From Lutraria lutraria (taxonomy: Eukaryota; Mollusca; Bivalvia; Venerida; Mactridae), in the NCBI GenBank assembly GCA_964023205.1, contig OZ026847.1:8306819-8370818 (forward strand): 64,000 nt of DNA, written 5' to 3'. This document shows positions 22,665-51,627 of the stretch, one piece after another. Below the pieces are notes generated by a model. That model made no database searches and was not told the DNA's origin. It saw only the letters and a program-made list of their open reading frames with translations. The position numbers were made by a program, and so were the translations under genes. Each line of letters opens with the position of its first letter. Position 1 is the first letter of the stretch.

Positions 22665-25600
22665 ATGAAACTTTTTAGCAACAAGGCAGCACGATCTGGA
22701 GAGAACTTGGACACTTCTCTTCCAGGATATACTCCTGTGTTTTTTTATGATGATCCACAAGACCACAAGAACTTGAAAGGGAGACATAAGAATTATGATG
22801 GAACTCAGACTTGTGAGGTCATCTGCAGGAATATTGCTATTGAAAACGGGTTTACACCATTAATGCTTCATTGCTTCGGACTAACCTTATTTGATGTCTC
22901 ATCAAAGTCGTATATATGGTTGTCTCCGAGTCAGAAACCGGACGATATTCCGTTGAGTCTTAAATGTTTAAAGATCCATTTTAGAATGAGATATATTCCT
23001 CATGAATCGAAACTGGATAAGTTGTTGGAGTTAGATACGGCATGTTTTTATTATTTGGTTTCCCAGGTTACCTGGGATTTTTTAATGGATTATCTCCCCT
23101 GTTTCGTTGTCAGTGAGAAAATTGAGGAAGCCAGGGGTGTGAGCTGTTTGTTAATGATGTATAAGTTAAGAGAAGATGCAGAAATTCGTCGGAAAAGGAG
23201 AGATGACTTGAAAGGTTTACTTAAAAACTTCAATTCATTTCTGCCAAGTTCTTTGCAGAAATCAGTATTTGAAGGAAAACAAGTTCTAAAAACCAGCATG
23301 AGCGATTGTCTTGAAGAACTGATAGAAAAATTTCCACTCCCATGCAGTTCAACTGTGACAACATCTATAATGCAGTGGTTCTTAAGACATATTCTGAAAC
23401 AAAATAGTGATTACTATGTAGAGAACTTTACTGGTTACTTTGTGGATATGGATGAAGAAGAGTTTGAAGCTGTGGATGATGAACCACCTCTTGAAAATTC
23501 AGAGAAATTAAAGATCACTGTAGAAATGTGTCAAGACGATCCCAGCCTAGTTGTTGTGAAAGAAAATAATGTAAGCAAATCTTCTATCTGTGAATTTTTA
23601 CAAAGAATTTATGAATTTTTACTTTAAGTATTATACAAATGTATGTCTAGTAAGTCTTCTTGATATTAGGCTAAAATTAAAATTAAGTTTGTTTGCCCTT
23701 TACCGACCAACCCGAAAAATTATGCCGACTCGAAACATTTTATTACAAAATCTGGGAGAACTTTATTTTTATACTTGGGAAAATATACATGTACTCAGCG
23801 CTTTAGGTAAACATTTAAGAAGGTATCATTTGAAGTAATGAAGGAAAATAATAATGTGTGTTGAGGCACTGAGTACATGTTCATGGTTGATTAAAACACA
23901 CAATAAATGGTTGTATGGTAGCAGAATACATAAAATAAATATAGAATGCTTCTAGATGGAAGTGTAAAAATAATATAAAATATTTTTCCTACCTACCGAC
24001 CCTCTTCTGAAAGTCAGGGTCGGTAGAGGGTAAAAAAACATATTTTTAATTTAGGCCTTACCTTTTTTCATTTTAGACCTCAAAGTTTCCAAAATATGAT
24101 CATATCTTAACAGTACTGACAAACTTCTGTTTGCAGCCACCTCCGTATAAAGGCCATTATGTGCATAAAGGTCATTCATTAAAGGGGCATGCCCTGGAAC
24201 TGCTGTGTCTTGGGTTTTATACACCAAAAATGTGTTTATCACTTGTAAAAACAATTATTACCGAAAAGTCAAAGAAGAAAGTGCCTTCAAAAATGGCCAT
24301 ATAACTTGCGCGTGAGTATTTATGTGCCGGTTTAAATAAAAGGCTTACAGCCTTTTATTGATGACAACGATATTTCCGATTCGTCTGAGAATTTAACTTA
24401 GCGTGCGCACTACCTTTCAAGCAGCAAAACAATGATATTTACCTATTATTGATTGATAGATAAGCTTTATGTCGCAAACAATGAACATGACATGAGCAAT
24501 ACTTACCATTTCACAGTTTGTTGACATTTTTTCCGCTTTTGACAGATCCCGAAAGGGTCGATTTATGAAAATGACGAATATTTTCTAAGGCGTAATCGAC
24601 AGCTTTTGTAAATCTTGAAATGTGTATTTTGAGTCAACTAGTGGGATATTTCGTAAATATTTTACAGGACTTTCATTAATTGATTTAGGCATTCAAATGA
24701 TACCAATTTGATTTATATTCAAGACGCTCCAGTTCCAGGGCATGCCCCTTTAATTATTTAGAACAAATGACCTCTAAATAAAGGTCACATTTTGTCTTTC
24801 TCAAGGGTGGCCTTTGTTCACACCTCACTGGTTTAACTGTACATTATTCATAAAAGTTTGAATGGTCAAATGACTTCATTGTAAGATGTTTGAAATCCTG
24901 CATAGTTTAATAATTATGTTGTTTACAAAATACAATTGCTTATTTTTTTCGGAACATCCATGTTGTGTATACATTGATTTTTTTTCTGTATTGTGACTTT
25001 ATAGGAGGAATATTTCAAAAATTACCTGGTCAACATTGTAGAGCTTATTATGACACAACGTGAAGACCGTGGAAAGATTTGGTGGATGATTAGAATTTTT
25101 CGACAAAATGGTCATCCTCAGGTGATGTGTTATCATGCAGTGATCTCATTAGTCATTTTGCCACCTAGTAACTGGGCCTTTTTACTGGGCCTCGTCACAG
25201 AGCCTCATTACTGGGCCTAGTCACAAGGTTTCAAGTCTAGGCCTAGTCATGGGGCCTTAATACTGGGCCTAGACACAGGGCCTCATTATTGGGCCTAGGC
25301 AAAGGGGCTTATAACTGGGCCAAATCACTGAGCCTCATTACTGGGCCTAGACAAAGGGCTTCATTATTGGGCCTAGACAAAGGGCCTTATTAGTAGTTAT
25401 TACTGGACCAAGTCACTGAGCATAGTCACTGGGCTTCATTTATGATATTGGGCCTAGTCAATTAAGTTAGTCACTGAGTCTAGCCTCTCATTACTGGCCT
25501 TGGCACAAAGTCCTGCCACAGGGCTTTATTACTAAGTCTTGTCACGGACTGAATTTAGTGAATTTACCTCATTGCTAATATGATACTGTGCTCCTTTTAT

Positions 25601-51627: not shown

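Follow-up and report, generated by a model that had tools for sequence, protein, structure and literature searches.

Results

Gene Structure and Exon Organization

The window, by which we mean the whole 64,000-nucleotide stretch of Lutraria lutraria DNA that was analyzed (on contig C16 of a 728.5 Mb assembly in 71 contigs), holds on its forward strand a gene of 25 exons (22665–51627) with a single open frame (1,611 codons, then a stop codon), in which FERM, SH2-like, pseudokinase (JH2), kinase 1 (K1), and kinase 2 (K2) regions are encoded in that order. All 24 introns have GT-AG borders and the phases are consistent at every junction. The gene was rebuilt from splice sites and open frames, and exons 2 and 12 were recognized through comparison with a protein of the clam Mactra antiquata, the closest among the matches listed. 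This rebuild arrives at the ends and totals given in an earlier note on this DNA (25 exons, 1,611 codons, GT-AG borders, consistent phases), which held no exon list to compare. Queries for the Pfam analysis of the FERM and SH2 regions of the window protein, for the N-terminal PDB comparison, and for the Mactra search came from an interim model of 23 exons and 1,527 residues that lacks exons 2 and 12; the K1 and K2 sequences are identical in the interim and final models. In the protein search the interim model is 51% identical to the 1,538-residue Mactra protein, which covers 99% of it, and with this alignment and two further full copies in the genome the predicted gene structure exceeds what chance would give.

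Exon 1 (22665–23570) carries the start codon, FERM F1 and F2, and part of F3 (residues 1–302), includes an MKLF stretch also found in Mactra, and ends in a GT donor. Exon 2 (25005–25121; AG/GT borders, phase 0/0) encodes FERM F3 residues 303–341, corresponding to the Mactra FRQNGHP stretch, and is followed by exon 3 (26545–26702; AG/GT) with the end of F3 and the start of the SH2-like region, exon 4 (28320–28464; AG/GT) with the SH2-like LYILR motif, exon 5 (29985–30135; AG/GT) with the SH2-like end, and exon 6 (30594–30740; AG/GT) with the SH2-JH2 linker and the start of the pseudokinase. The pseudokinase extends through exons 7 (32063–32175; glycine loop and VVIK), 8 (32966–33187), 9 (34184–34335; HGN and DPG), 10 (36017–36173; C-lobe), and 11 (37140–37341; end of the domain). 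Exon 12 (37914–38048; AG/GT), which includes HKYNEISYI and a 15-residue match to Mactra, encodes the JH2-K1 linker. A 44-bp tandem array (37674–37954) covers the 5′ end of exon 12 together with its splice acceptor, and the exact acceptor stretch is repeated at 37870, where its use would shift the frame.

K1 is encoded by exons 13 (38524–38810; proline-rich linker and K1 start), 14 (39207–39303; glycine loop to the β3 lysine, Lys996), 15 (39522–39635; helix C with Glu1013), 16 (40413–40525; hinge region), 17 (41358–41530; HCD, DFG, and the activation-loop YYY), 18 (41969–42058; CSPE and the next helix), and 19 (42405–42578; C-lobe). Exon 20 (43583–43898; residues 1218–1323) comprises the last residues of K1, a Ser/Thr-rich linker, and the first residues of K2, and is intact in both other copies of the gene. 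The remainder of K2 lies in exons 21 (45700–45871; glycine loop, Lys1342, Glu1356), 22 (47171–47316; hinge region), 23 (47783–47967; HCD and DFG), and 24 (49863–50156; AAPE and C-lobe), and exon 25 (51558–51627) supplies the C-terminal tail and the stop. The K1 profile match ends at residue 1219 and that of K2 starts at residue 1316, the linker in exon 20 amounting to ~80 residues; exon 20 ties K2 in frame to the predicted JAK transcript while carrying merely the margins of K1 and K2.

Tandem Copies of the Gene

Three tandem copies of the JAK gene are present in the genome (213 kb examined): the window copy, a second that starts ~66 kb upstream of it, and a third ~69 kb downstream. The two further copies retain 25 of 25 exons with borders and frame intact, copy A being short of 9 bases, in frame, in exon 1. 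Pairwise comparison of the three gives 22, 20, and 14 coding changes, of which 5, 5, and 4, respectively, are synonymous; synonymous divergence among the three is just 0.4–0.5%, and the pN/pS values of 0.66–0.90 derive from differences too few to reveal purifying selection. Bivalve alleles may differ synonymously to this extent, and with copies so close one of them may be an allele misplaced by the assembly. That the array is in part such an artefact, with alleles set side by side, is however rather unlikely given that there are three copies rather than two and that two transposon-like insertions are exclusive to the window copy; the matter affects copy number, not architecture.

Elsewhere in the genome, 20 hand-picked single kinase exons were compared with the domain set, and the best match was a non-JAK kinase for 19 of them. 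The four best matches of the remaining exon (L018; G000:C7:3654280-3654560) are JAK-type (71.6 to 67.0 bits), with HTK16 and ACK1 within 1 bit of the fourth, and this exon could be part of another JAK or of a Syk-like kinase.

Domain Identity and JAK Membership

The first kinase-like domain carries HGN at residue 660 and DPG at 684 (protein coordinates here and below), as in a pseudokinase without the catalytic Asp. The earlier note had read it as a JAK pseudokinase on these hallmarks, a reading borne out by its grouping with JAK JH2 domains: 23 JH2 domains, that of the window included, fall on one side of a branch (100/100).

For the N-terminal domains the Pfam matches are weak. In the interim model the matches to FERM_F1 (20.9 bits) and FERM_F2 (15.5 bits), both from exon 1, are under the Pfam cut-off, and SH2_1 in exon 4 scores 21.9 bits against a cut-off of 27. 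A FERM part passes the cut-off in five of nine homologues (Mactra F2, 30.7 bits; Mercenaria F1, 28.2; Lingula F1, 59.2, and F2, 41.0; Mizuhopecten F2, 30.7; Ylistrum F2, 26.2), falls below it in Mya and Dreissena, and is not listed among the Pfam matches of either Mytilus protein. SH2_1 passes in none of the nine, the best reaching 25.1 bits. A FERM region at the N terminus, as expected of a JAK-family member, is predicted by these comparisons, though it is weak in the window protein alone. PDB comparison of the interim model ranks chain 7t6f (JAK1) nearest to the N-terminal part, with one tandem EGFR chain second and JAK2 pseudokinase chains after it; 7t6f, which aligns with exon 3, and the JAK2 chains 6e2q/4z32 align over the SH2-like part.

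Single-sequence PDB comparisons of the C-terminal domains gave the tandem EGFR chain 9p9u first in both cases, probably because the scores of two domains sum, followed for K1 by TYK2 (4oli) and 7t6f and then Csk and Syk, and for K2 by 7t6f and JAK2/JAK1 chains. In the tree, 32 JAK-type catalytic domains, K1 and K2 included, are set apart from 13 other tyrosine kinases (96/95), a split that assumes a root among those 13; Ylistrum K1 was omitted from the catalytic-domain trees because its gene model misses part of the domain. The kinase phylogeny that the earlier note had proposed as a check places both C-terminal kinases with JAK JH1.

The window protein departs from a canonical JAK in having two catalytic domains after JH2 rather than one and in carrying HCD rather than HRD in K1 and K2. 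Adjacent activation-loop tyrosines are present in its K1 (YYY), and its K2 has a single Tyr. With two catalytic domains behind JH2, it is a variant JAK by descent and not a canonical JAK.

Active Sites of K1 and K2

The catalytic residues claimed for both C-terminal domains could be located in each: glycine loop 965, Lys996, helix-C Glu1013, HCD 1084, and DFG 1104 in K1, and glycine loop 1324, Lys1342, Glu1356, HCD 1441, and DFG 1464 in K2. Across the 10 species compared, the β3 Lys, helix-C Glu, catalytic Asp, Asn, and DFG are retained in K1 and K2 without exception.

The replacement of HRD by HCD in window K1 and K2, a feature absent from the earlier note, extends to all 18 bivalve K1/K2 domains, in which the arginine is missing (15 Cys, 2 Ser, 1 Gly). 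The arginine is present in Lingula K1 and K2, in 13 of 13 ordinary JH1 domains, and in all of the 13 other kinases except ROR2, which has HKD. Adjacent activation-loop tyrosines occur in K1 of all nine bivalves; in K2 they are present in the four pteriomorph species and lost in the five Imparidentia, whose K2 domains also have an unusual HCDLTxxN (HGDLTSKN in Mercenaria) and DFGWA. In six of seven species compared, K2 shows less identity to the window than K1 does (e.g. 53 versus 67% in Mactra and 36 versus 46% in Mytilus), the exception being Mercenaria (56 versus 53%); by this measure, K2 is evolving faster than K1 in most comparisons. Both K1 and K2 are probably catalytically active.

The Same Architecture in Other Species

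Three protein searches found 808, 79, and 2,107 proteins, from which the best 120 of 808, all 79, and the best 120 of 2,107 were taken, and the resulting 312 distinct proteins were scanned with a kinase profile built from five seed domains. Three kinase domains were detected at the threshold used in 11 of the 312, and 10 of these 11 are JAK-type and come from nine species: the bivalves Mactra antiquata, Mercenaria mercenaria, Dreissena polymorpha, Mya arenaria, Mytilus californianus, Mytilus galloprovincialis, Ylistrum balloti, and Mizuhopecten yessoensis, and the brachiopod Lingula anatina, all represented by predicted gene models. The Mya proteins P0002 and P0003 are isoforms from one gene, and the Mya models P0004, P0005, and P0123 carry portions of that protein, none reaching three kinase domains at the threshold used. 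Pfam PF07714 gives three stretches in eight of the nine species and four in Ylistrum, where K1 is split in two pieces. The 13 ordinary JAKs run alongside, hand-picked from the search lists, all have two kinase domains. A 920-residue protein reached via the K2 search (P0125) also has three kinase domains, with no JAK domain in Pfam.

The five-domain order, which the earlier note had suggested looking for in bivalve proteomes, therefore recurs in nine other species, with a FERM match that is weak or missing in some, and the long JAK is, on the evidence of these predicted proteins, not private to one species. Since the searches depend on short exact words in common and on bounded lengths, species absent from the lists may still have the gene. 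The long JAKs equal the window protein in domain order and in their three kinase domains. The K1-K2 linker ranges from 0 (Mya) to 217 residues (Mercenaria) in the eight proteins measured. They are annotated as “JAK1-like” in M. galloprovincialis, “JAK2-like” in Dreissena, “JAK2” in Lingula, “hypothetical protein” in Mactra, and “uncharacterized” in Mercenaria, Mya, Mizuhopecten, Ylistrum, and Mytilus californianus.

Origin of K2

Bivalve K1 and K2 together form one clade in the tree with other kinases (99/97) and in that of JAKs alone (96/95), and within it bivalve K2 is likewise one clade (95/86 and 91/84, respectively). Trees in which Imparidentia and Pteriomorphia each had their own duplication were not rejected, holding K1 and K2 of the former together giving p = 0.28 (0.20 with JAKs alone) and holding those of the latter together giving p = 0.18; a single bivalve origin of K2 is preferred by the trees, not forced. 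In the best tree bivalve K1 is not monophyletic, pteriomorph K1 lying nearer to K2 (90/73), and one bivalve K1 clade is not rejected (p = 0.27).

In Lingula, K1 and K2 are mutual sisters in both trees (100/98). Uniting every K2 domain, that of Lingula among them, in a single clade is rejected (p = 0.0003; 0.001 with JAKs alone), as is one clade of all K1 domains (p = 0.00008). Given the rejection of a joint bivalve and Lingula K2 clade, JH1 was probably duplicated at least twice, although gene conversion inside Lingula could mimic the sisterhood of its K1 and K2. Taken together, K1 and K2 of Lingula may still form the sister group of bivalve K1 plus K2 (p = 0.54).

Intron positions bear on the same question. 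Three of the five K2 introns share both alignment column and phase with K1 introns (in the glycine loop, before GM[EC]xL, and in the W preceding xxPE), and the remaining two have the phase of a K1 intron and are 9 and 3 columns off. K1 has two introns absent from K2, and none of the five JH2 introns shares a column with any K1 or K2 intron. This pattern favors the derivation of K2 by duplication of K1, in line with the duplication model of the earlier note and with the position of both domains alongside JAK JH1. The locus is very probably that of a JAK-family cytoplasmic tyrosine kinase gene in which JH1 has been duplicated in tandem within the gene, an explanation that covers the gene, its architecture, and its JAK descent.

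Alternative Explanations

That two neighbors were joined on paper, one an ordinary JAK of four domains with its end in exon 19 or 20 and the other an independent tyrosine kinase gene, might be argued from AATAAA/ATTAAA signals (43285 and 43453) in the intron that follows exon 19, from the stop that retention of this intron gives just past exon 19, which makes a shorter isoform conceivable, and from the limitation of exon 20 to the margins of K1 and K2. However, exon 20 links K1 and K2 in frame in all three copies, the nine other species are annotated with a single protein, and Pfam finds nothing but linker, and no separate domain, ahead of K2. On these grounds we put this explanation aside as very improbable. 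Equally improbable is that K2 is an unrelated tyrosine kinase captured behind a JAK via exon shuffling, although K1 and K2 of one protein are just 32–45% identical in the eight proteins compared. The bivalve K1+K2 clade, the three introns identical in column and phase, the loss of the HRD arginine from both domains, and a PDB ranking of K2 that puts JAK chains right after one tandem EGFR chain all argue against capture and led us to set it aside.

A subtler alternative concerns function within the same protein, namely that K2 chiefly serves regulation or scaffolding, on its way to becoming a second pseudokinase, and is no independent catalytic site. Its long tree branch, its lower identity to the window than K1 in six of seven species, and, in five Imparidentia, the lost adjacent tyrosines and odd HCDLTxxN and DFGWA motifs are in keeping with such a role. 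Conversely, the retention of Lys, Glu, Asp, Asn, and DFG in K2 of 10 species would be unusual for a domain without catalytic constraint, and in the Mercenaria comparison K2 is as conserved as K1; we regard a noncatalytic K2 as unlikely.

Discussion

Comparison with Known JAKs and Other Kinases

Vertebrate JAKs and Hopscotch share with the window protein a FERM region, a putative SH2-like region, a JH2 with HGN and DPG, a JAK-type catalytic domain, and adjacent loop tyrosines as in K1, and its JH2 and catalytic domains group with theirs in the trees. In contrast to these canonical JAKs, the window protein has an extra C-terminal catalytic domain, and the HRD arginine is gone from both. The Lingula long JAK differs from the bivalve ones in that HRD is kept and its two kinases are mutual sisters (100/98).

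The catalytic loop of the plant kinase XA21 lacks the HRD arginine. Plant non-RD immune receptor kinases of EFR and XA21 type share this trait with the bivalve domains (for EFR, see the accessible text of PMC8463890), and plant proteins so named appear under the JAKs among the matches listed in the K2 search. EFR and XA21 are LRR receptor kinases of a different kinase group, and the likeness is limited to one motif. Non-RD kinases, as those without this arginine are called, have been linked to innate immune signaling across kingdoms (PMC8463890, in its accessible part).

Two kinase domains are treated as the norm in a 2026 survey that follows JAKs through the animal phyla, including molluscs and brachiopods; its accessible text reports domains that are not conserved in some invertebrates, mentioning losses and no third kinase (PMC13203501). 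The usual structure is also described in an analysis of chordate JAK evolution (PMC3296744, in the text available), and a Mytilus edulis transcriptome includes a JAK2-like contig whose architecture is not given in the accessible portion of that paper (PMC3308963). In the oyster kinome paper (PMC4883820), a search of the main text for the word JAK gave no hit. The earlier note knew of no described JAK with a second catalytic domain, and no three-kinase JAK was found in the accessible text of the open-licence literature searched; Figure 5 of PMC13203501, with drawings of JAK domains, or papers outside that literature might show one.

Proposed Mechanism and Implications

In ordinary JAKs, JH2 restrains the catalytic domain, and the pseudokinase of the long JAK would restrain the adjoining K1 in the same way. 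The FERM-SH2 part would hold the tail of a cytokine receptor, as in the receptor docking of JAKs described in the accessible text of PMC5394478. K1 would act as the trans-activating kinase, being the likelier counterpart of an ordinary JH1 because it adjoins JH2 and has the adjacent tyrosines, and K2, on its variable linker, would provide a second active site that widens reach or substrate range (receptor tyrosines, STATs, or the partner JAK), with possible effects on trans-phosphorylation and STAT selection, as the earlier note had suggested. The loss of the HRD arginine in K1 and K2 suggests weaker reliance on loop phosphorylation, and catalysis would probably depend less on phosphorylation of the activation loop and more on release by the pseudokinase. 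We tentatively propose, as a scenario that may well prove wrong in part, that lophotrochozoans (bivalves and brachiopods) gained JAKs with two working sites on at least two occasions via tandem duplication of JH1, and that the bivalve sites then became non-RD, with the pseudokinase rather than loop phosphorylation as the switch and K2 free for new substrates.

In the current model of JAKs a single pseudokinase controls a single kinase, and both drugs and disease mutations are interpreted within it. A natural JAK in which one pseudokinase is followed by two catalytic domains, as predicted in several bivalve families and again in a brachiopod, would put the essentials of that model to the test: how one pseudokinase keeps both sites in check, whether the HRD arginine is required for trans-phosphorylation, and whether an additional site broadens the choice of STATs or receptors. 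The architecture is also relevant to the way cytokine-like signaling works in bivalves, animals without adaptive immunity.

Repeats and Neighboring Open Frames

A 1.06-kb element with inverted ends (CACAGGCTACCGGCATGTGA...) is present twice in the window (34531–35592 and 48689–49748), in introns of the window copy only. It is flanked by an 8-base repeat, as in hAT elements, and copy A retains the undisturbed sites. Upstream of the gene lie four tandem copies of a 1.03-kb unit (15947–20077), which is likewise found upstream of the other two JAK copies. An open frame at 60611–60988 has a signal-peptide-like stretch after its first Met and is Reeler-like by eye only, with no Pfam match. Near the start of the window, the open frame at 3–1850 has a reverse transcriptase domain (Pfam RVT_1, 1e-25) and is probably a LINE fragment, and a GPCR-like open frame (Pfam 7tm_1, 3e-15) lies on the minus strand at 5665–6684.
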